From Deltaproteobacteria bacterium (GTDB taxonomy: Bacteria; Myxococcota_A; Polyangia; Polyangiales; JADJMO01): a stretch of 64,000 nt of DNA. The stretch lies in contig JANYDK010000073.1 of NCBI GenBank assembly GCA_025363655.1, positions 1 through 64,000 of the forward strand, in the 5' to 3' direction. Under the pieces are notes generated by a model that was not told where the DNA came from, did no database searches, and was given only the letters and a program-made list of their open reading frames with translations. Both the position numbers and the translations under genes were made by a program. Below, in pieces: positions 30,113 through 61,822 of this stretch. Each line of letters opens with the position of its first letter. Within the stretch, counting starts at the first letter, position 1.

Positions 30113-31483
30113 ATGGTGACGTCCGATCCCGATCTCGTCGGCCGGCTCCGAGGCGCTCTCGCCGGTGCGCCGGCCGCCACGCCGCGCGGTTTCGTTCGTG
30201 GCATCGTCGGTTTGTCGGCGCGCGCGTCACTTCCGGGGGCACGCATCGGAGACGTCGCGGTCATCGAACGTCCGCTCGCCCGTGGTGGACCGCTCGTCTG
30301 CGAGGTCGTCGGCTTCGGCGCGCCGAGCGGCGATGCGTCGGCTTCCCCTGCGCTCGACGTGCTCTTGATGCCGCTCGGTCCGCTCAACGGCGTCGGCCCG
30401 GAAGATCCCGTTCGGCTCGAGGAAGCAGGCGCCGAGCTCTACCCCGACGAAGGCTGGCTCGGTCGCGTCATCGACGGTCTCGGCAAACCCATCGACGGTG
30501 GCCCGCCGCTCACCCGCGGCCAAGCGACGCCGATCGATCGCCGTCCGCCGTCGCCACTCGAACGACAGCCGATCGAACGCCCGCTCGCCACCGGCGTACG
30601 CGCCATCGACGGGCTCCTCACCCTCGCCGAAGGACAACGCATCGGTCTCTTCGCCGGCAGCGGCGTCGGCAAATCGACGCTCCTCGGCGCCATCGCCCGC
30701 GGTACCAACGCCGACGTCGTCGTCGTCGCCCTCGTCGGCGAACGTGGCCGCGAGGTCGGTGAGTTCCTCGAGCACGCGCTCGGCGTGGAAGGACGCAAGC
30801 GCGCCTGCGTCGTCGTCGCCACCAGCGATGCCGCGGCCCTCGAACGCATCCGCGCCGCGCAGGTCGCCACCGCCATCGCCGAACGCTTCCGCGACGACGG
30901 CAAGAGCGTGCTGCTTCTCGTCGACTCGATCACCCGCTTCGCGCGCGCCCAGCGAGAAATCGGCCTCGCCGCCGGAGAGCCGCCGACGCGTCGAGGCTAT
31001 CCGCCGAGCGCCTTCGCCTTGCTCCCGCGCCTCCTCGAGCGCGCCGGTCGCGGCGCCCGCGGGAGCATAACGGCGATATATACAGTGCTCATCGAAGGCA
31101 GCGACATGGAGGAGCCGATCGCCGACGAGGTGCGCGGCATCCTCGACGGTCACGTCATCCTCGATCGCACCATTGGCGCGCGCGGCCGCTTCCCCGCCAT
31201 CGACGTCGCCAACTCTCTCTCCCGCGTGATGGACGCGGTGGTGAAGCCCGAGCACGCCCACTCGGCGCGCCGACTCCGCGCGATGATCGGCACCTACGAG
31301 CAGAAGCGCGATCTCCTCGCGATCGGCGCCTACCAGAAGGGTGGCGATGCCGAGCTCGACGAGGCGGTGCAGAAGCTGCCGCTGCTCGAGGCGTTTCTCA
31401 AGCAGACCCCGGCGGAGATCATGCCCTTCGAGGAGACGGTGCAGCGTCTTCACGCGGCCGTCGGCGCGCCTCGCAAGAAGTGA
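30113..31483 (+). CDS. FliI/SctN-type export ATPase, orphan
   Basis: This 456-residue ATPase belongs to the flagellar/type III secretion branch of the F1-beta family. It has Walker A GSGVGKST, ALVGERGREV, Walker B LLLVDS, and ITRFARAQREIG...PPTRRGYPPS, the SctN/FliI signature. The N-terminal beta barrel (~20-95) and C-terminal helical domain (FLKQTPAEIMPFEETV) are complete. In known systems it unfolds export substrates at the base of the export gate. No other flagellar or type III gene is in the window. It starts 24 bp after the MocR gene on the same strand. It either serves a dispersed myxobacterial type III apparatus or is a relic. The sequence shows no decay. Confidence 0.9.
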   Translation: MVTSDPDLVGRLRGALAGAPAATPRGFVRGIVGLSARASLPGARIGDVAVIERPLARGGPLVCEVVGFGAPSGDASASPALDVLLMPLGPLNGVGPEDPVRLEEAGAELYPDEGWLGRVIDGLGKPIDGGPPLTRGQATPIDRRPPSPLERQPIERPLATGVRAIDGLLTLAEGQRIGLFAGSGVGKSTLLGAIARGTNADVVVVALVGERGREVGEFLEHALGVEGRKRACVVVATSDAAALERIRAAQVATAIAERFRDDGKSVLLLVDSITRFARAQREIGLAAGEPPTRRGYPPSAFALLPRLLERAGRGARGSITAIYTVLIEGSDMEEPIADEVRGILDGHVILDRTIGARGRFPAIDVANSLSRVMDAVVKPEHAHSARRLRAMIGTYEQKRDLLAIGAYQKGGDAELDEAVQKLPLLEAFLKQTPAEIMPFEETVQRLHAAVGAPRKK

Positions 31484-31831: not shown

Positions 31832-32200
31832 CTAGGCGATGGCCTTCGCGCTGAGGGCGGCGGCCTCGAGCGCGGATGCGAGGGCGGCGTCGGCCGACTG
31901 GAAGTCGAACTGCATGACGATGCACACGACGTCGGTGGTGCCCGCGCGGAAAATGACGCCGCTATCGACTGCGAAGAACCAGGCGTCGTAGACGTGCTTG
32001 CCGTCGTCGAGCACGTCCCAGCGGGCGAGCATCATCGTGTAGAAATTCGTCTCGATCTCGACGTCGGTGTGGAAGAGCCGCTCCTCCGGAGGGAGGTCTT
32101 CACCGTCGTAGCGCTGGCCGCAGATCCGGAGCTGTTCGCGGCCGATGGCGTCGAGCTGGTCGACGCTCCTCGGAAAGCGCGCATTCGTTAAGGTCAGCAA
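31832..32200 (-). CDS. Probable immunity protein for the RHS toxin
   Basis: This is a 122-residue soluble protein with no recognised family. It starts 13 bp after the stop of the RHS toxin gene on the same strand. That is the standard place for an immunity gene, and small size, lack of signal peptide and acidic character (LDDGKHVYDAWFFAVDSG) fit. A deaminase toxin acts in the cytoplasm, where this protein should also be. The sequence looks like an alpha/beta fold (RLFHTDVEIETNFYTMMLAR). The function rests on context only. Confidence 0.65.
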   Translation of the reverse strand: MLTLTNARFPRSVDQLDAIGREQLRICGQRYDGEDLPPEERLFHTDVEIETNFYTMMLARWDVLDDGKHVYDAWFFAVDSGVIFRAGTTDVVCIVMQFDFQSADAALASALEAAALSAKAIA

Positions 32201-32213
32201 GTCGCTCCCTCAC

Positions 32214-35200
32214 TCACGGCCACAAGACCAGCCCATCCTTGGTGCCGTTGTTGGCGGCGATTGCCGTGGTCGCCGCTCTTTTCTGGGCTCGGTATTCGAC
32301 TGCACTCTTTGTCGTGTAACCAGGGACTTGGGTGTCGTCTCCGATCCGCCCGTGGCCGATGCGTGCACCGGGCTGGTTGGCTAGCCAGGGGTCGAGAATT
32401 TTTTGGTTCGGGGCAGCGTAAGCGTTCACCAGGGCCTGGGATTGCTGGCCGTTCCCCTGCGCGCCGCTGCCGTTGTAGGTGATCTGCTGGTTGGTCGGGT
32501 AGTGGTACTGGATGCTCCCGCCATTCTTGCAGTTCTGGTCCGCATAGTCCTTCAAGAGCCTGTGACAGACCTTGCACGGCGGAAAGGGCGCGCTCATCTT
32601 CGCCGTACCGCCGTTCTGCAGCGCGGCCTGCGCCGGGCTGCCCTCGCCCATGATGACGAGCGCTTTCCGCTCGGCATGACCCGTCGCCAGGTTCCTCCAC
32701 GTGGGCCCAACGAAGAAGACGCTCTCTCCCGAGGTGAGCTGCTGCTGCGGGATGATGACCTCGCTTCCGTGCGTCACCTCGAAATCCATCGGCATGCTCA
32801 GCCCATAGGGATCGAGCTCGGCGACGGGGTTCGTGCAGTACAGATAGACGTTCAGATTGCCCACGAGCCCAATCGGATCGGGGCTGATGTAGCGGCCGAC
32901 GTCCGGATCGTAGTACCGGAAGAAATTGTAGAAGAGACCCGTCTCCTCGTCCTCGAACTGGCCCGGGAAGCGCACGTCGGTCGGCGCGTCGCCCCGCGCG
33001 CGCATCACTCCGAAGGCCGTGCGGTCGATGTCCGCGGCGAGCGTCCCGTCGGCGCGCACGACCGCCTCCGGTGCACCGGCGAAGTTGGTGGCGAAGAACT
33101 GCCAATCCTCCGTCCGTGCGTCGCCGATCGTCGTCGTGATGTGCTCGCCCATCGGGGCATAGGCCTTGGTGTGCTCGTATAGGTACGTGCGCAAGCGCCG
33201 CGAGGTCTCGCGCCCATCATCCCCGTACGAGACGCGCTCGTCGTGGACGAGCCGCTCTTCGTCCCACACGTAGCGAGTCTTGCTCTTCAGGCGATACTCG
33301 AGCTCGTGCGGCACGCGCTCGTAGACGCGCTTCTGGATGCGGTTGCGCAGGAGCGGCAGGTAGTCGAATTCGACGCGCGACCCATCCGGGAGTGACACGG
33401 CCGTCAAGGTGCGTGCCGCGCTCCACTCGTAGGCCCAGACGTCTTCAGCGCCATCATCGCGCGTGATCGTCTTCTCGACGAGGAATCCCGCGGCGTCGTA
33501 GGCGAAGCGAGCGGGGCCCGATGCCACGAGCTTGTTGCCGGGTGCAAACTCCTCACGTCGGTCTTTACCGAGTCGTACGTTGTTGGCTGCGTCGTACGAG
33601 AAAACCTCCGGCTCGCCGCGGTCGGGGATCTTCGCGACGAGCCGGTCGCGCGCATCGAGCTCGTAGCGAATGAGGTCACCAGACTTTCGCTGGCTGACGA
33701 GATTGTCGAAGGCGCCGTAGTGATACTCGTTGTCGACGGTGGCGGGCCCGCGCCGCACGCCGAGGAAGTCGGGCTCCTTGGTGCGCGCCGCCGCGGCGCC
33801 AGCTCCGCTGGTCAGCACGCACCGCCGCGAGACGCGCGTCAAAGGGTCGTACTCGCTCGCGATGACGCCGCCCGCCGGGAGATCGACGCGCAGAACGTTC
33901 CCGAGCGGATCCCGCTGGAACGTGACCCTGTCCCGCTCGTCGATGTCGATTGCCGTCGGGCGACCGAGCCCATCGCGCGTGAAACGTTCGACATGACCGA
34001 CCGACGTCGACAGCCGGGTCCGAATGCCGTCGCGGCCATAGGTCGTTTCGACGACGCTCGTATCGCCGTTGCAATCGACGCTCTCGCGCAGGACGTTGCC
34101 TAGGGCGTCGCGGTCAAAGGAGATCTTGGTAGTAGCTCCTTGGATGGCGACGAGCTCACGCCGCTCGTTGTACGAGAACGTCTCCGACACGCCGTCGGGG
34201 TAGTTCGCCTCGACGATCTGAGCCGCATCGTCGCGCACGTACTCGATCTTGCCGTGGCCGAGATCTTCCGAAATGAGGCGACCCATCGCGTCGTAGCGGC
34301 GCTCGATGACGCGCCCATCGAAGGTCGTCTCGCGCCGGAGACCGCCGCGCGTGTCCCACTCGAAGCGCGCCATCTCGCCCGCCTCGTTGTGCAACGCGAC
34401 GAGCTTGCCGAGGCGGTCGTACCGATATTTCACCGTGTCGCCGTTGGGCTCCACGCGATCACACAACCAGTGGAGGCCGCCCCAGCGATACTCCCACACC
34501 TTGCCGTCGTTGCGAATGGTGCGGACGATGTCACCCATCGCATCGTAGTCGTGCGTCAGCGAGCTGCCGTCGCGCTCCTGCACGCCGGCGGGTCTCCCAG
34601 CCGCAGTCCAGGCCCAGCGCGTCGAGTGGGAAAGCGGATCGATGCGCTCGAGCAGCCGGCCCCAGTAGTCCCAGCGCCACTTCCACACCGAACCGTCCGC
34701 GAGGCGCGCCTCGATGAGGTTGCCGTGCGCATCGACTTCATAGGTGGAGTGCCCGCCGTTGGGGTGGATCTGCTCCCGCATCAAGCCTCGCTCGTCCCAG
34801 CGATATTGGGTCACACCGCCGAGCTGATCCTCGATCGTGTCGACGTAACCGCGAGCGTCCCGCGTGAACTCGAGCACGCCACCAGCCGCGTCGGTGGCCT
34901 GCACGACGTCACCCGCCTCGTTGCGTACGAGCTTGATGGAGTGGCCGTTCGGATCGGTCTCCTGAAGGACCCTTCCGTGGTGGTCGCGTTCGTACGTGGT
35001 GGTCGCGCCGTTGCGATCGGTGAGCGCGCGCACCTGACCGTTCGCATCGAAGGCGCGCGTGGTGACGCCGCCGTTGCCGACGGCCTTGGTCGCCATACCG
35101 TGCTCACCGATGAAGAAGCGCTGGAGCTCGGTCGTCGTGATGACCTCACGCGCACCGCCACTCCCGTACTCGATCTTGACGTGGTGAAGGCCCTTCGCCC

Positions 35201-36221
35201 TCGTGTTGCGGTCGGCGAGAAAGGTGGGGAGGTCCGGGTCGAGCGCCGGGTCGCCGTCCGACCGCGCGCCCCACGTCTCGATGCAACGCCTCTCGGCGTC
35301 GTAGATCCAGTGATACGTGAGCCCGTTGGGATATCGCAGCGCCGTCAACCGGTGATCGCGGTACTCGTACCGAAGCGTCACGCCGTCGGCGTCGGTCCAG
35401 GCGACGAGATCTCCCGCTTGATCGTAGAGATAGGTTCCGAAGCGAATCGTCGCGCCAGTCGTGCGATCGGTCACGTCGATCGCCGCCACGCGCCCCTCGG
35501 GCGTGAGCTGCAAGTCGATGTCGCGACCGGCCGAGTCGGTGATGGTGCGGAGACGACGCTGGTTGTCGTGGTGTAGGACGATCTTGTTGAAGCCAGGCGC
35601 GAGAACGAAGGCGAGGAGCCACTCGCTCGGCGCAGACGGCAGCGTGCGGAAATGGTGAATGAACGGTGTACCGGAGCCGACCACGTACCCCTCGGCGGTG
35701 CGCTCGAGCACCCACCCTTCGGCCTCGTTGAGCTGCCCCACCGCGGGGCGCTTGAACTCGACGGCGTAGCCACTGCCGTCGACGACCGTGACCTTGCCGC
35801 CCGACTCGGTGAGGCGCCAGCCGAAGCTGAACGACCAACCATGGCCAAACCCGATGTCGAGCGCCCCGTTGCGCGTGCTGTAAGTTCGCTGGATTTGTAG
35901 GTCGACCGGGCCGGGTAGAAAGACATCGTAGGAAGGGGTGGTGTAGACCTCGCCCGTCGCGAGGTCGACGGGATCGCCAGCCGCGGGCTTGGCGCTACAG
36001 CCCGTGCATCCGGCAGCACCCCCTGCGCCGCACTTGCCGTTCTTGCCGTCGCCATTCGGGTCGTTCTCGCCGTTGTTCGCGCCGGCCTCGTTGTTGCCGT
36101 TGCCCCCGCTGCCGTTGCCGCTGCCGTCGCCCGAGCCGCCCGCGCCACCACCCTTGATGAGCGTTCCCGGACACATCCCTGGGATGGGCGGAATGTTGGG
36201 AACTGGTGCCGTTCTCGCCAT
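32214..36221 (-). CDS. RHS-repeat polymorphic toxin with deaminase-like C-terminal domain
   Basis: This is a 1335-residue toxin. The N-terminus (VPNIPPIPGMCPG, then a Gly/Asn-rich and Cys-containing stretch) is of the PAAR-like type seen on myxobacterial RHS proteins. DPVDLATGEVY opens the RHS shell, with many YD repeats (for example YRYDRLGKLVALHNEAGE) to ~1100. The core cleavage region is FPGQFEDEETGLFYNFFRYY...DPIGL, ending DPYGLS at ~1142. The variable tip (1143-1335) has HAE at 1182-1184 and PCKVC at 1215-1219, the two zinc/active-site motifs of the cytidine/nucleic-acid deaminase superfamily. It is therefore predicted to deaminate a base in DNA, RNA or nucleotides. A small downstream gene is the likely immunity partner. 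Export could use the T6SS or another RHS route. Confidence 0.9.
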   Translation of the reverse strand: MARTAPVPNIPPIPGMCPGTLIKGGGAGGSGDGSGNGSGGNGNNEAGANNGENDPNGDGKNGKCGAGGAAGCTGCSAKPAAGDPVDLATGEVYTTPSYDVFLPGPVDLQIQRTYSTRNGALDIGFGHGWSFSFGWRLTESGGKVTVVDGSGYAVEFKRPAVGQLNEAEGWVLERTAEGYVVGSGTPFIHHFRTLPSAPSEWLLAFVLAPGFNKIVLHHDNQRRLRTITDSAGRDIDLQLTPEGRVAAIDVTDRTTGATIRFGTYLYDQAGDLVAWTDADGVTLRYEYRDHRLTALRYPNGLTYHWIYDAERRCIETWGARSDGDPALDPDLPTFLADRNTRAKGLHHVKIEYGSGGAREVITTTELQRFFIGEHGMATKAVGNGGVTTRAFDANGQVRALTDRNGATTTYERDHHGRVLQETDPNGHSIKLVRNEAGDVVQATDAAGGVLEFTRDARGYVDTIEDQLGGVTQYRWDERGLMREQIHPNGGHSTYEVDAHGNLIEARLADGSVWKWRWDYWGRLLERIDPLSHSTRWAWTAAGRPAGVQERDGSSLTHDYDAMGDIVRTIRNDGKVWEYRWGGLHWLCDRVEPNGDTVKYRYDRLGKLVALHNEAGEMARFEWDTRGGLRRETTFDGRVIERRYDAMGRLISEDLGHGKIEYVRDDAAQIVEANYPDGVSETFSYNERRELVAIQGATTKISFDRDALGNVLRESVDCNGDTSVVETTYGRDGIRTRLSTSVGHVERFTRDGLGRPTAIDIDERDRVTFQRDPLGNVLRVDLPAGGVIASEYDPLTRVSRRCVLTSGAGAAAARTKEPDFLGVRRGPATVDNEYHYGAFDNLVSQRKSGDLIRYELDARDRLVAKIPDRGEPEVFSYDAANNVRLGKDRREEFAPGNKLVASGPARFAYDAAGFLVEKTITRDDGAEDVWAYEWSAARTLTAVSLPDGSRVEFDYLPLLRNRIQKRVYERVPHELEYRLKSKTRYVWDEERLVHDERVSYGDDGRETSRRLRTYLYEHTKAYAPMGEHITTTIGDARTEDWQFFATNFAGAPEAVVRADGTLAADIDRTAFGVMRARGDAPTDVRFPGQFEDEETGLFYNFFRYYDPDVGRYISPDPIGLVGNLNVYLYCTNPVAELDPYGLSMPMDFEVTHGSEVIIPQQQLTSGESVFFVGPTWRNLATGHAERKALVIMGEGSPAQAALQNGGTAKMSAPFPPCKVCHRLLKDYADQNCKNGGSIQYHYPTNQQITYNGSGAQGNGQQSQALVNAYAAPNQKILDPWLANQPGARIGHGRIGDDTQVPGYTTKSAVEYRAQKRAATTAIAANNGTKDGLVLWP

Positions 36222-36580: not shown

Positions 36581-36592
36581 TCAGGGAACGAG
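36566..36592 (-). terminator. Stem-loop spanning the stop codon of the SBBP-repeat lipoprotein gene
   Basis: CTCGTTCCCT and AGGGAACGAG form a perfect 10-bp stem with a 7-nt loop that includes the TGA region (stop at 36583-36581). There is no T-tract. It probably ends transcription or protects the 3' end of this mRNA, separating it from the RHS gene. Confidence 0.5.
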
Positions 36593-38269
36593 CTCGACGA
36601 GGAACGCGGCCTTCCCATCAGCGCTGCTGAGCCCCGGCGTCACGAGGTGTGCGCCGGCGAGGTCGAGCGTCCCTTGGAACGGTCCGGCCACGACCAACGC
36701 CCCGGTCGACCGGACCGCGAGCGCGCCGAGGCCGAAGGTGTTGGGGAGCGTGTCCACCATGGGCCTACCGCCGAGGTACGCGCCGTCGCCTCCGAGGTGC
36801 ACGAGCCAGCTCGCGACCACCTTCGTGGGATCGCCCGCGACGAAGGTCGGTCCGCCGGGCTCGACGTCCATCTTCATCTTGAAGCCGCCTCCCGCGAAGA
36901 CGCCGCCCTTGCCGTCCGAGACCATATCGTAGCTGCTGTCCTCGTCGGGCCCGCCGATCGCGCGCGCCCACCTGACCGCGCCGTCCGGCGAGAGTCGCGC
37001 GACGAAGCCGTCGTCGAACCCGCCGGCCGTGCCGAGCCAACAACCGTCGAGCGCGAGTCGCTTCTGGACGGCACCATCGACGAAGAGGTCGCCGCTCGGA
37101 TCGATCACCAGTTGCGCCAAGGAAACGCCGACGGGATCGGGGAACGTCTTCGTCCATAGGACGTCGCCGGCGGCGGAGTAGCGCGCGAGGAACCCGGTGT
37201 AGCCTGCGCTGGTCGACGTCAGCTCGCCGGCGCCGAGATCGCAATGGGCGCCGTAAAAGGTGCCGATGGTATAGACGCCGCCGCCCGGTTCGATCGCCAC
37301 GTCGTCGATGAGGAAGCCGCAGGTGGGTGCGAAGGCCTTCGACCACACGTGCGCGCCGCCCGACGTGAGCTCGACCAGCGTGAGACGCTTGGTGGTACCG
37401 GTCACGGTCAGCGGTCCGCCCCCGTAGTCGATCGAGCCGTAGGCGCTACCGGCGAAGACGATGTTTCCAGAGGGTGCGATCGCGACCGGATAGATGCTGC
37501 TCCACTCCGGCGCTGAGAAGGTCTTGCTCCAGAGGTGCGTGCCGCTCGAGGTGTATCGCGCGATCAGGCCTTGGCTGAGGATCTTCGACGGGAAGGTGCT
37601 CCCGCCCATGGAGACGCCGTCACCGGCGTACTCGGCGCTGACGACGACGTCTCCGCCAGGGTCGAGAGCCAGGGTCGCGAGCGACAACGTCGCCCCGCTC
37701 GACCCTCCGTACGAGTGCGCCCACATGAGCGCGCCGGTACCCGCGTACTCCGCGAGGAAGAGGTCGCGCGCGCCGCTGGCGGTGATCGGACCCCCGCCGA
37801 GATCGACCGTCCCACCGAATGTACCGACGACATAGAGGTGCCCGGCGGCGTCGCCAGCCATGTCCCCGATCTCGACCGTGGAGGTCTTGTCCGTGCCGCC
37901 GAGCCTCTGACTCCACGCGGACGTCGCATAGCCAGCGTCGCCGGTGGCCGGCGGAAAGGTGCACGGAGGTCCGACGTCGCTCGACGTGTCTGCGTCAGAA
38001 CCCACGTCCGCGTCGCCGTCGATCGCGACGGCGTCGCCCGCATCGATCACCTCGCCGGCCGCGTCGACGAAGCTGTCCGCCGTGTCGGTCGTGGCATCGC
38101 GCGCCGAGTCGAGCGCCGAGTCGAGCGCGGAGTCGACCGGCCTCACATCCACGCCGGCGTCGACGCTCACGTCGCCCGCAGAGGTATCGGCTACGGAGGC
38201 GTCGTCGCCGTTCCCGGAGCAGCCGAGTGCGAACAGGATGGGTAGGGCGCACAGCTCGCGTACGCGCAT
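36581..38269 (-). CDS. Lipoprotein with Asp-rich linker and SBBP-type beta-propeller
   Basis: This is a 562-residue lipoprotein. The signal peptide (RELCALPILFALGC) ends in a lipobox, followed by a ~90-residue Asp/Ala/Ser/Val-rich linker (for example SALDSALDSARDATTD). Six or more blades follow with the pattern LFLAEYAGTGALMWAHSYGG, D-P-x-G-D-V-V-V, typical of the seven-bladed SBBP repeats in myxobacterial surface proteins. It should be an outer-membrane-attached binding protein. No enzyme motif is seen. It stands alone, with a strong hairpin at its stop codon. The plus-strand neighbour (38395) is divergent. Confidence 0.82.
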   Translation of the reverse strand: MRVRELCALPILFALGCSGNGDDASVADTSAGDVSVDAGVDVRPVDSALDSALDSARDATTDTADSFVDAAGEVIDAGDAVAIDGDADVGSDADTSSDVGPPCTFPPATGDAGYATSAWSQRLGGTDKTSTVEIGDMAGDAAGHLYVVGTFGGTVDLGGGPITASGARDLFLAEYAGTGALMWAHSYGGSSGATLSLATLALDPGGDVVVSAEYAGDGVSMGGSTFPSKILSQGLIARYTSSGTHLWSKTFSAPEWSSIYPVAIAPSGNIVFAGSAYGSIDYGGGPLTVTGTTKRLTLVELTSGGAHVWSKAFAPTCGFLIDDVAIEPGGGVYTIGTFYGAHCDLGAGELTSTSAGYTGFLARYSAAGDVLWTKTFPDPVGVSLAQLVIDPSGDLFVDGAVQKRLALDGCWLGTAGGFDDGFVARLSPDGAVRWARAIGGPDEDSSYDMVSDGKGGVFAGGGFKMKMDVEPGGPTFVAGDPTKVVASWLVHLGGDGAYLGGRPMVDTLPNTFGLGALAVRSTGALVVAGPFQGTLDLAGAHLVTPGLSSADGKAAFLVELVP

Positions 38270-56380: not shown

Positions 56381-58306
56381 TCAGTCCTGTGTGACGGGCT
56401 TGTCGAGCCCACGATCATGCCAGTCGACGACCTCGACGCGCACGTCGTCGCATCGCCCAGTCTCCATCGATCCGCGGCGCCGTTGATAGTCGCGAACGCT
56501 TGCCTGCGGGTCGCCGCCACGGTCACCGAAGCCGAGATTGTCCAGACGGCGGACGATGTCGCCGTCCGAATCGTCCGTGACGCGACAAGCTTGCCTACGA
56601 AAGGGAAGGGAGCTGCCGTCGATGGACTCGCCCCACTCCACGACGAAGGTCTTCACGCTTGCTGGGACCGCGGCGCTGCAGATGCCATCGTCGCCGCTCG
56701 TTCCGGAGGACGTACCCAACGCGCTCCACGTGATGCGGAAAGGCACGCCTACCATTGGCTGATGCTTGCGATCGAGCACGCGGATGAAGACGTCGTCCAA
56801 GTCGGTGGTGAAATCGATCGTTTCGGTGATCTGTTTTCGCCATTGCCGATAAGCAGTCGAGCCGCGCCGGGAGACCTTTCCCGGCGGAGCGGGATCAATC
56901 TTGCCGTCGAAGCAGAAGATCTCGACTCGTCGATTTTCGGCGTCGGCTACGCCATCGGCGGTCTCATCTTCGGGAAAGAATTCGCCGCAGCCGTGCCTCG
57001 TCAGCTCGACGCCGATCGGAAGCGACGTCTCGTCGATCGCCATGTATTCCTCGACGAGTTGTCGTCGCGTGGCGCTCCCGATGTTCCCATCGATGACGAG
57101 CGCGCTTCCGCGTGTGGCATTGGACCATTCCTGGAAGCGGGCGACCGCAGCCTTCAACAGCGGCCCGTTCAGGCCATCGATCGGCCCGTCGTAGAACAGC
57201 TTGGACCCCACCGGCAGCGCGGACAGCATGTGTTGTTCCTCACGAACGCCCCAAGCCTTCTTGAAGTGGACCTTTGCTTCGAACCATTTCAGCCAGCCTT
57301 CAGCGTTGTCCGTGAGGTAGTCGGCGACGGCATCCGCACGTTCGAGGGAAAGATCCAGATTCCAGTTCTCGTCGCCAGCCGTGTCGGTGTGTCCGACGGC
57401 GAGCAGCTTTCCGCTTGGATTGCGTTGATACACCTTCACGACGCCCCGAATTCCGTGCATTGCCGACGGCAGCAGGAACGATTTGTCCGTCTCGAAGAAC
57501 ATCCCGACGAGCATGATTCGCGGGTGCTCACGCTGGAGAACGAGTGTCAGCGGCCTCGTGGCCTCGAGCGGCACGCTCGCCATGTCGTCACGTACGCGCA
57601 CGACGTGCGTATTCTCACCGGACGGCAGCGGCGCGTCGGAAGGCGGAATGCTGCGCGCGCGAAGCTTTTCACGCACCTTCGCGACGTTGCTGAACCGCAG
57701 CGAGCCGAACGACCCGCGCGCATCGTCGACGCGAACGCGTCCCGCGCCGTCGGTCGCGAGCTTACGAATCTTCCCGTCGACCGACAGCTCGACGTCGACG
57801 CCGTCCATCGCACGGGCCTGCTCGTCGACGACGATGACTTCGAACCAGGTCGGTTCTTCGTTCGCGCTCGGCGACGCCGCCGGCTCAGGTGTCGAGGAAC
57901 CTGTCGTGTCGACGTCGTCCAATGCGGAGTCGTCCGGCTCGTCATTGTTGGAAGCAGCGGGCTCCGCGCCGACGAGCGCCGCATCCTCCTGCCTGAGTGC
58001 GACGAGCCGACCGGATCGGAACTCCTCGCGCAGCCATTCGATGGCACGCGGCAGATCGTCGCTGCGCGGGGGCTTGAACTGGTTGAGCAGATCGTAGTTG
58101 TCGGTGAGCTTGGCGTAGAGGTCGAGCGCCGAGGCCCCATGCCACACGCTGGTGCGCGCTTCGTCGAGCAGTTGATCGATCTCGAGGCCCCGCACGGTGC
58201 GCGTGGCGTCGATGGCACGGCTTCCGAAGGTGCCCTCGTTGCGCACGACGCGGAGGACGGCGAGGGAGCGAGCGAGCAGCGTCAGGTCGTCGGTGAGGAT
58301 GGGCAT
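56381..58306 (-). CDS. OmpA-like protein interrupted by a peptidoglycan-binding domain
   Basis: This is a 641-residue protein without a signal peptide. The N-terminus (LTDDLTLLARSLAVLR) recalls T6SS-locus proteins of myxobacteria. A beta-sandwich-like stretch at ~150-265 follows an acidic linker. OmpA motifs are present but split: GHTDTAGDENWNLDLSLERA and DAVADYL come first, then ~90 residues that look like a peptidoglycan-binding domain (LFYDGPIDGLNGPLLKAAVA, VIDGNIGSATRRQLVEE), then the OmpA end GEFFPEDE and ENRRVEIFCF. The C-terminal ~130 residues are another beta domain. It should bind peptidoglycan, perhaps anchoring or delivering the spike cargo. It is the first long gene of the left-facing arm. 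Confidence 0.78.
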   Translation of the reverse strand: MPILTDDLTLLARSLAVLRVVRNEGTFGSRAIDATRTVRGLEIDQLLDEARTSVWHGASALDLYAKLTDNYDLLNQFKPPRSDDLPRAIEWLREEFRSGRLVALRQEDAALVGAEPAASNNDEPDDSALDDVDTTGSSTPEPAASPSANEEPTWFEVIVVDEQARAMDGVDVELSVDGKIRKLATDGAGRVRVDDARGSFGSLRFSNVAKVREKLRARSIPPSDAPLPSGENTHVVRVRDDMASVPLEATRPLTLVLQREHPRIMLVGMFFETDKSFLLPSAMHGIRGVVKVYQRNPSGKLLAVGHTDTAGDENWNLDLSLERADAVADYLTDNAEGWLKWFEAKVHFKKAWGVREEQHMLSALPVGSKLFYDGPIDGLNGPLLKAAVARFQEWSNATRGSALVIDGNIGSATRRQLVEEYMAIDETSLPIGVELTRHGCGEFFPEDETADGVADAENRRVEIFCFDGKIDPAPPGKVSRRGSTAYRQWRKQITETIDFTTDLDDVFIRVLDRKHQPMVGVPFRITWSALGTSSGTSGDDGICSAAVPASVKTFVVEWGESIDGSSLPFRRQACRVTDDSDGDIVRRLDNLGFGDRGGDPQASVRDYQRRRGSMETGRCDDVRVEVVDWHDRGLDKPVTQD

Positions 58307-58936: not shown

Positions 58937-60937
58937 ATGGAAGACATCTTCAACATCCGCAGCCAGGCCCTCCCCAACGCGACGCGGGTGATCGCTTTCC
59001 GCGGCCTGGAGCGGCTTTCCCGGCCGTACGAGCTGCGCATCGACCTGCTCGTTCCCCACGGCACGCATTTCGATCCGAGCAAGGTCATCGGTGAGCGCGC
59101 CTCCCTGACCATCGACCGTCACGACGGCCGTCCGCCCCTGCACCATCATGGTGTGCTCACCTCGGCCGACGTGATGCTCGAGATCGATCGCGGCGAAGTC
59201 TGCCGCGTGGTTCTCGTGCCAGCGTTTGCGCGCCTCGCGGTCCCCCACCAGAGCCGTGTCTTCGTCGATACGACATTGCCGAAGATTCTCGAGGCGATCT
59301 TGCTCGATGGAGGTCTCGCTTCGGACGATTTCGAGCTGCGACTCGAGCGGGTGTACAAGCCGATCGATCACGTCTGCCAGTACGAAGAGAGTCACTTCGC
59401 GTTCGTGTCGCGCTGGATGGAACGCGAGGGCCTCTACTACTTCTTCGAGCAGGGAGAGCAGCGCGAAAAGCTCGTCATCACGGACAGCAAGGGGTTCCAC
59501 AAACCGCTCTCGCCCGACCCGGTTCGGTTTCTCCAGGCGTCTCGAGGGACGAGCGCGGCGCTCGAACGTCCCGAGTCCCTCGATTCGCTGACGATTCGAC
59601 ACCACAGCCTGCCGGCGAAGGTGCGCTTTCGCGACTACGACTACCAGAAGCCCGACCTCGACATGTCGGCGAGCTCGGCGGTGTCGTCGGGTCACGGTGA
59701 CGTCAAGATCTTCGGTCATGGCTTCGAGACGCCCGACGACGCGAAGCACCTCGCGAACGTCCTTTCGCAAGCTCTCCAAGCGACCCAATCGGTGTACCAG
59801 GCGGCGGGCAACCAACTGTATCTGCGACCGGGTTTCATCTTCCAACTGGAAGAGCATCCGCGCCCGGCGTTGAACGCGAAGTACCTGGTGACGGCGCTGC
59901 AGCACACTGCCAATCAGCTCGCGCACGCGCTCGGCGTCGCGCCCATGCTCGGCTTCGACCAGCACGAGGTCTACCGCTGCGAGCTGACCGCGATCCCGGC
60001 GGCGCTCCAATTTCGCGCGATGCGAACGACGCCGTCGCCGCGCATCGAAGGGACGGTGTCAGCCGTCGTCGATGGCGCTGCCGATCACGACTACGCCCAG
60101 CTCGACAAGCACGGCCGCTACCGCGTGAAGATCTTGTTCGACGAGGGTGATCTGAAGAACGGGAAGGCGTCGACGTGGGTGCGAATGATGCAGCCGCATG
60201 GCGGAAGCCCCGAAGGCTTTCACTTCCCGCTACGCAAGGGGACCGAGGTGTTGCTGACGTTCCTCGGCGGTGACCCCGACCAGCCGGTGATCGCGGGTGT
60301 CGTGCCGAACGCGAAGAATCCGACGCCGGTCGGCGAGGACAACCACACGAAGAACATCATCCACACGGGTGGCGGCAATCAGATCGTGATGGAGGATCAC
60401 GAGAGCAAGCGATCGATCAAGCTGCGGACGCCGCACATGAATACGATGCTGCATCTGGGTGCGCCGAACAGTCCGGCCGAGGGATTTCATCTCGGTACCG
60501 ACGCGAATGGCAGCTTCTTCGTGAAGAGGGATCTCGACACCCAGGTGTTGGGCAAGGCCGATACGCAGGTCACGGGTGCGTACTCGGTCTCGGGAGCGTC
60601 CATTTCCGAGACGGCCTCGCTGAACCGCACGGACACGAGCCAAAACCACTTCCTCAACACCAACGGCTTTTGGCTCGACGCGAAGGACACCTTCCAGACG
60701 GTGACGCCCAAGATCGTGGAGTACTGCGAGACTCGCGTGACCAACGGGAACGAATCGATCAACTTCCGGTGCTGGGGGGCAACGCTTTCGATGACGCACG
60801 ACCTCATCAAGGTGACCGTCGGGAGCTCGACGATCGAGATCACGCCGACCGGCATCGTCATCACGGGGGCGGAGGTGAACATCACCTCGCCGGGCCCCAT
60901 CGACGTCAAAGGCTCGATCATCAAGCTCAACTCGTAG
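58937..60937 (+). CDS. vgrG: Type VI secretion spike protein VgrG
   Basis: This 666-residue protein trimerises to form the T6SS tip that punctures target cells and carries effectors. The gp27-like part (SQALPNATRVIAFRGLERLS, YKPIDHVCQYEESHFAFVSR, MEREGLYYFF) and the gp5 OB-fold (GRYRVKILFDEG, WVRMMQPHGG, KGTEVLLTFLGGDPDQPVI) are complete. A beta-helix extension follows (NHTKNIIHTGGGNQIVMEDH, then Ser/Thr-rich repeats) to the end, with IDVKGSIIKLNS. There is no extra toxin domain. Start ATG is at 58937. The PAAR-metallopeptidase gene follows by 18 bp, so its product likely caps this VgrG. Sheath and baseplate genes are not nearby. Confidence 0.95.
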   Translation: MEDIFNIRSQALPNATRVIAFRGLERLSRPYELRIDLLVPHGTHFDPSKVIGERASLTIDRHDGRPPLHHHGVLTSADVMLEIDRGEVCRVVLVPAFARLAVPHQSRVFVDTTLPKILEAILLDGGLASDDFELRLERVYKPIDHVCQYEESHFAFVSRWMEREGLYYFFEQGEQREKLVITDSKGFHKPLSPDPVRFLQASRGTSAALERPESLDSLTIRHHSLPAKVRFRDYDYQKPDLDMSASSAVSSGHGDVKIFGHGFETPDDAKHLANVLSQALQATQSVYQAAGNQLYLRPGFIFQLEEHPRPALNAKYLVTALQHTANQLAHALGVAPMLGFDQHEVYRCELTAIPAALQFRAMRTTPSPRIEGTVSAVVDGAADHDYAQLDKHGRYRVKILFDEGDLKNGKASTWVRMMQPHGGSPEGFHFPLRKGTEVLLTFLGGDPDQPVIAGVVPNAKNPTPVGEDNHTKNIIHTGGGNQIVMEDHESKRSIKLRTPHMNTMLHLGAPNSPAEGFHLGTDANGSFFVKRDLDTQVLGKADTQVTGAYSVSGASISETASLNRTDTSQNHFLNTNGFWLDAKDTFQTVTPKIVEYCETRVTNGNESINFRCWGATLSMTHDLIKVTVGSSTIEITPTGIVITGAEVNITSPGPIDVKGSIIKLNS

Positions 60938-60955: not shown

Positions 60956-61822
60956 GTGACGCGTACGCCCGCTCGTTTGACGGATCCTCACTGGTGTCCT
61001 GCGATGGAGGGCTCGGTGCCGCACACGGGCGGGCCCATCGCGGGTCCAGGCGCGCCGAAGGTGATGATTGGCGGTCTCGCGGCAGCGCGTGCAGTCGACG
61101 TCGCGCCCTGCGCGGCTGGCGGTCAGGACGCCATCACGCAAGGCGCCGCCACCGTTCTCGTCGGCGGCATGCCGCTCGCGCGAATGATGGATTCCTTTCT
61201 GCACGGCGGTATGGTCAGTCCTGGCTTCGACGGCGTCACGGTCGGAGGCGCGACGGCCAATCTCAAGGCGCAGGCCGAGAGCGTCATTGCCCATGGCGGT
61301 AGCACGCGCGTCTACGTCGATCCGATCACCAAGACCGTCTACATCAGTACCAACCTCGAGTACTCCGGCCCCGGCGCATCGCAAGACTACGCCGACGCGG
61401 CCAAGCAACAGATCGAGGCGATGTGGAGCAAGCAGATGACGATCGACGGCGAACCGTACGCGGTCAGCGTGCAGGTGAACACGAAGGTCAACCCGAATGG
61501 CCCGCCGACCAGCGGCTACGATCAAATCTCGGTCGATCCGGCCGTGGTCCGAGACAACCAACCTTTCTACGGCAACGGGACCGGTGAGCAGCAGCCTGGA
61601 TCGGCGACGAATCCCGATGAGCCCTTCATCGCCGCTCACGAGTACGGGCACACGCTCGGTTTGGCGGATGACTACCACGACACACCCGACGGTTCGGTGC
61701 CCAACGACCCCGAACGCAAGCACGACATCATGGCGCAGACGTGGCCAGATCATGACGACGGAATCGACCCATCACCAGACCAGCAACACTATGAACAGAT
61801 CCTCAAGAACTTCGGCTACTAG
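60956..61822 (+). CDS. PAAR-domain metallopeptidase, probable T6SS effector
   Basis: This is a 288-residue fusion. Residues 1-~105 are a PAAR cone that sharpens the VgrG tip (TGGPIAGPGAPKVMIGGLAA, ITQGAATVLVGGMPLARMMD, GGMVSPGFDGVTVGG). Residues ~110-288 are a zinc peptidase: HEYGHTLGLADDYHD at ~228 is an HExxHxxGxxD metzincin-like site, preceded by ISVDPAVVRDNQPF and followed by HDIMAQTW, a likely Met-turn. It should be carried by the spike and cleave target-cell proteins. The start is GTG at 60956 with AAGGAGA seven bases upstream. The lipoprotein gene starts directly after its stop. Confidence 0.9.
   Translation: MTRTPARLTDPHWCPAMEGSVPHTGGPIAGPGAPKVMIGGLAAARAVDVAPCAAGGQDAITQGAATVLVGGMPLARMMDSFLHGGMVSPGFDGVTVGGATANLKAQAESVIAHGGSTRVYVDPITKTVYISTNLEYSGPGASQDYADAAKQQIEAMWSKQMTIDGEPYAVSVQVNTKVNPNGPPTSGYDQISVDPAVVRDNQPFYGNGTGEQQPGSATNPDEPFIAAHEYGHTLGLADDYHDTPDGSVPNDPERKHDIMAQTWPDHDDGIDPSPDQQHYEQILKNFGY

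Follow-up and report, generated by a model that had tools for sequence, protein, structure and literature searches.

Pput_2613-like deaminases, which have been equated with BaDTF3, cause C:G-to-T:A changes in E. coli, and the deaminase toxin relatives assayed in the same work mutate DNA (PMC7901873). Substrates are distributed as a mosaic among related deaminase clades (PMC7901873). Canonical Pput_2613 toxins pair with Imm10, and the immunity proteins of such systems generally block their toxin by binding to it (PMC3482391).

Here we analyse an RHS gene and its small neighbour in a 64,000-nucleotide stretch of DNA (the window) from a Deltaproteobacteria bacterium with a 9.0 Mb genome. As judged from its sequence, the C-terminal tip of the RHS protein is a divergent BaDTF3/Pput_2613-like homologue outside the canonical clade. 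We favour, at a probability of about 0.65, a polymorphic-toxin effector and immunity pair in which the RHS-enclosed tip would deaminate DNA cytosine and the neighbouring protein, IMM, would block the tip.

The RHS gene and its C-terminal tip

The RHS toxin open reading frame (32214..36221, minus strand) is intact and encodes 1335 aa, with an ATG start and no internal stop. From the N terminus, the protein consists of an MARTAPVPNIPPIPGMCPG head, a Gly-rich linker, DUF6531, RHS/YD repeats, Rhs_assc_core and the toxin tip. Beyond residue 1141, where the Rhs_assc_core model stops, lies a tip of 193-194 residues, taken here as the 193 aa of residues 1143-1335 (32217..32795, minus strand). With its RHS/YD repeats, Rhs_assc_core, variable tip and adjacent candidate immunity gene, the locus has the make-up of an RHS polymorphic toxin. 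A head resembling MARTAPVPNIPPIPGMNPG, followed by the Gly-rich linker, is common to all RHS proteins of the tip family (for example L076-L086); it has no Pfam name and could act as a signal for delivery. The gene immediately upstream of the RHS gene encodes an Asp-rich, 562-aa apparent lipoprotein without a Pfam match (36581-38269, minus strand).

A preliminary description of the locus had given exact coordinates for the RHS frame and its 122-aa partner, and had placed both deaminase motifs within the 193 residues past the RHS core, where we locate them as GHAERKA (residues 1181-1187) and PPCKVC (residues 1214-1219). The first active-site motif, H-A-E (32670..32678, minus strand), contributes H1182 (codon 32678-32676) as a predicted zinc ligand and E1184 (codon 32672-32670) as the predicted proton shuttle. 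The second, P-P-C-K-V-C (32565..32582, minus strand), contributes C1216 (codon 32576-32574) and C1219 (codon 32567-32565), both predicted zinc ligands. In tip numbering, H40-A-E42 opens helix 41-48 and P73-C74-x-x-C77 opens helix 75-88, in the motif order of the deaminase superfamily.

AlphaFold, supplied with 16 aligned tips (alignment A5), predicts a deaminase fold for the tip (pLDDT 78.3, pTM 0.77, core >90). The predicted order is b1-b2-a1(HAE)-b3-a2(PCxxC)-b4-b5 with a b4-b5 hairpin, comprising strands b1 (2-9), b2 (12-21), b3 (64-68), b4 (94-99) and b5 (103-108), helices a1 (41-48) and a2 (75-88), and a C-terminal extension with helices at 117-126 and 162-181. An initial model from two sequences (pLDDT 50.6), for which Foldseek pointed to kinases, was set aside. 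The best PDB match of the tip model in Foldseek is DddB/BaDTF3 (9k3e, E 1.3e-3, probability 1.00), followed by DddA (6u08) and then by APOBEC3G and dCMP deaminase. VIA-align gives a Z of 9.2 against 9k3e, with an rmsd of 2.6 over 97 residues, and among the matches listed the remaining rows are likewise deaminases or deaminase complexes. Membership of the zinc-dependent deaminase superfamily is well supported by predicted fold, homology and motifs, with catalysis as a putative activity, and the preliminary reading of the gene as a deaminase toxin draws support from the predicted fold, profile and motifs.

Single-sequence searches with the tip gave no match in plasmids, phages or the PDB and none that was confirmed in IMG/VR, and in GTDB contigs they recovered a single locus, G241, on contig JALHOE010000089.1 (Deltaproteobacteria bacterium isolate bin.11), from the window's family but another genus; two other early matches (L003 and L004) proved to be spurious frames. 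The two loci share 65% identity across the whole RHS protein, 61% across the tip and 68% across the downstream gene, which is IMM in both; among the genes called, the window shares no further one with the 20 kb surrounding the G241 locus. In 318 genomes of the class, a profile built from these two tips picked out about ten distant tips from other genera, in frames of RHS length. Across 12 RHS tips (alignment A4), E42, P72, P73, C74, C77, A85, Y97 and Y107 are invariant, and because the active-site and other positions are held in this way the tip motifs are not a chance occurrence. A further search with the A4 profile gave matches in 17 of the 318 class genomes, among them tips of the canonical Pput_2613 type and a small number of fragments. 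The genome searches covered one class and part of its phylum, with limited candidates scored per genome, and an empty result from them is weak evidence.

The partner protein and other candidate immunity genes

IMM, the 122-aa immunity candidate (31832..32200, minus strand), starts at a TTG codon ~14 bp past the RHS stop and is preceded by GAGGGAG, a ribosome-site-like stretch. Convergent with the toxin pair is a gene for a FliI/EscN-type ATPase with a T3SS ATPase C-terminal domain (30113-31483, plus strand). The partner had been described as belonging to no known family, and this holds in Pfam and NCBIfam, neither of which has a match to it. The nearest PDB match, weak (E 0.055) and covering only a portion of the domain, is not one that we believe. 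The idea that IMM is a diverged Imm10 was likewise rejected, as profile comparison with the Imm10 adjoining the genome's second RHS deaminase gave no significant similarity. That deaminase is a canonical Pput_2613 protein (C34:64664-64957, L028; E 5.8e-36) with the Imm10 gene just after it. IMM shares with Imm10 (PF15588) the location just 3' of a deaminase tip but differs from it in having no Imm10 match. Imm10 also adjoins the deaminase on a Streptomyces plasmid copy.

Gene context makes IMM probably the immunity protein for the tip. The gene is kept 3' of the tip in the second genus, and comparison of the two copies indicates purifying selection (NG86 dN 0.24, dS 0.70). Alternatively, IMM could be a general protein of the class that adjoins the RHS gene by chance, with protection coming from elsewhere. 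Profile searches detect the IMM domain in 38 of the 318 class genomes. Most of these copies stand alone or carry Lys-rich tails and are not RHS neighbours, so the domain may serve a different function; the pairing of tip with IMM is found in two loci only, those of the window and G241. In addition, tips of this family are usually followed by a different protein, termed HEAT/RRR, whose gene comes next in 10 of 16 tip loci (a count that includes G241, where it follows IMM, and G494, whose contig holds just the RRR start). The tight spacing between the RHS gene and IMM, the retention of the pair in a second genus and the joining of IMM to the RRR region in other genomes all argue against a chance neighbour, and polymorphic toxin systems often contain immunity genes without the cognate toxin, in poly-immunity loci (PMC3482391). 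We therefore consider a chance association rather unlikely and retain IMM as the probable antidote.

The RRR protein is 500-640 aa long and combines HEAT repeats with an RRRW-GL-P-GPLE region that has no Pfam match. In G241, tip, IMM and RRR follow one another in a row, whereas the window has tip and IMM; a profile search that also missed the known G241 copy found no RRR homologue in the window's genome. IMM is fused to the RRR region in five genomes (G339, G474, G536, G450 and G033), so that both gene neighbourhood and fusion tie it to the toxin family. The joined proteins (L037, L038, L040 and L042, with that of G033) lie away from RHS genes, several of them have Lys/Ala-rich tails, and it is possible that they are orphan two-domain immunity proteins. 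In one further locus (L148, G524), a tip relative is followed by a leucine-rich-repeat protein in place of RRR or IMM. Gene calls in the fetched loci came from a simple codon-position G+C script, so small neighbour genes may be missed.

The closest described counterparts of the RRR protein are the Imm-HEAT proteins, which also contain HEAT repeats (PMC3482391). Imm-HEAT is listed with Tox-REase-7 (PMC3482391), whereas RRR is linked here to deaminase tips and adds the C-terminal RRRW-GL-P-GPLE region. As far as Pfam, NCBIfam (for IMM only) and the literature surveyed show, neither of the two candidate immunity families has been described, nor has the fusion between them.

Placement of the tip and its likely substrate

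All 12 tips of alignment A4 match Pput2613-deam (PF14427), with a best E of 2.6e-12, and the A4 profile matches four BaDTF3/'YD repeat protein' chains in the PDB (9k3e, 9pw0, 9pw1 and 9pw2; E 1.3e-10 to 7.9e-10). In hhalign, A4 aligns with the canonical Pput2613 tip of the same genome (96%, E 2.4e-9), with HTE and PCxxC in register. Taken singly, the window tip scores 13.1 bits for PF14427 and the G241 tip 18.6 bits, both below the gathering cut-off of 25, and the four relatives tested pass it at 26.8-38.4 bits. The earlier statement that the tip matches no subfamily is thus true of the single sequence and fails for the tip family, which clearly matches Pput2613-deam; given the deaminase fold and the match of the tip-family profile to BaDTF3, the tip is not an unnamed subfamily. 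The suggestion of a new base-deaminating toxin was an overstatement, since mutagenesis data and solved structures exist for the Pput_2613-like family (BaDTF3/DddB), of which the tip is a divergent relative.

Within that family, the tip retains the deaminase fold, the HxE and PCxxC motifs, the b4-b5 hairpin and the C-terminal position on RHS/YD-repeat proteins that characterize the Pput_2613-like/BaDTF3 group (PF14427, 9k3e). It differs in carrying CxxCH rather than CxxCK, in an extension of ~80 residues past b5 and in having no Imm10 neighbour. CxxCH after the second motif is also a feature of DYW domains, which offers a lead. In the tree, whose deep forks are weak and whose root is arbitrary, three canonical Pput_2613 tips form a 100/100 group that excludes the window tip, and the window and G241 tips pair on a long branch. 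This position apart from the canonical clade, together with the sub-cut-off score of the window tip, means that specificity may have shifted. The SCP1.201-like group (BaDTF1, DddA), one of the families named for comparison in the preliminary description, resembles the tip in fold, with 6u08 second in Foldseek, and the Pfam search gave no SCP1.201 profile match for the tip.

The tip could also be a deaminase acting on another substrate, whether RNA, as in plant DYW proteins, adenine in nucleic acid, or free nucleotides. DYW RNA-editing domains are the runner-up in both VIA-align comparisons (7o4f, Z 7.1 and 7.4) and already ranked high with the two-sequence model of pLDDT 50.6; the window clade sits on a long branch, and related clades differ in substrate (PMC7901873). 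The tip shares its fold with DYW-like toxins (BaDTF2, SsdA) and plant DYW domains, at a structural score lower than that for 9k3e (7.4 vs 9.2), and no DYW profile appears for the tips among Pfam matches at E 1. The closest match by both fold and profile is BaDTF3/DddB, a DNA deaminase, and the DNA mutation seen with the assayed toxin relatives points the same way, so we judge a different substrate unlikely and keep DNA cytosine as the preferred one.

A degenerate deaminase fold without activity, retained as the structural end of the RHS protein, is a highly improbable reading of the tip: some relatives have D[ST]E for H[AST]E, but the window and G241 have all four active-site residues and have kept the partner gene, and comparison of the two tips indicates purifying selection (dN 0.32, dS 0.73).

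The D[ST]E form precedes (P/S)CxxC in five RHS tips (L081, L082, L086, L145 and L151), placing Asp at the expected zinc-binding His, and the wider group may therefore not be uniform in its zinc binding. One of them, L145 (G525), has a HEAT/RRR gene downstream.

Proposed mechanism and meaning

In the scheme that we infer for catalysis, a DNA cytosine substrate, delivery by a type VI secretion system (T6SS) and immunity, the RHS shell would carry the C-terminal zinc-dependent base deaminase inside it. The toxin would be delivered into a neighbouring bacterium, probably via the type VI system, and the tip then freed from the shell. There, with zinc held by H1182, C1216 and C1219 and the proton shuttled by E1184, the tip would deaminate DNA cytosine to uracil, which is read as T, in the manner of BaDTF3/DddB. 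In the producer, IMM, made just downstream, would most likely bind the tip in the cytoplasm and so block the toxin.

Delivery of the RHS toxin by a T6SS is plausible, given the sheath genes in the genome and the VgrG and PAAR genes in the window. The genome has two T6SS sheath (VipB) genes (E 1.3e-129 and 5.9e-33), and the window encodes, ~23 kb from the RHS gene, a VgrG-type T6SS spike protein (58937..60937, plus strand) and beside it a PAAR-motif protein (60956..61822, plus strand), both possible delivery parts. No spike-domain fusion was seen in the RHS protein. Also beside the VgrG gene is a gene for a protein with OmpA and peptidoglycan-binding domains (56381-58306, minus strand).

As a less probable extension of this reading, we tentatively entertain that the clade is a distinct, class-specific branch of deaminase toxins, altered in substrate or sequence preference and countered by the undescribed IMM and HEAT/RRRW-GL immunity families. 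These families would also be fused as orphan two-domain protectors, and some of the toxin relatives would use Asp for the zinc-binding His.

The locus extends a toxin family that is already known and contributes two families of candidate antidotes; it is no new kind of system. Its newer part is the immunity side, IMM and HEAT/RRR, as the toxin falls within the wider BaDTF3 group. Survivors of bacterial DNA deaminase toxins can be mutated by them, and relatives of these toxins that act on dsDNA are in demand as enzymes for base editing. A divergent clade related to BaDTF3 across the RHS proteins of the class offers new natural enzymes to assay, the D[ST]E relatives being a curiosity among them, and the replacement of Imm10 by IMM or HEAT/RRR makes a testable case of immunity exchange.
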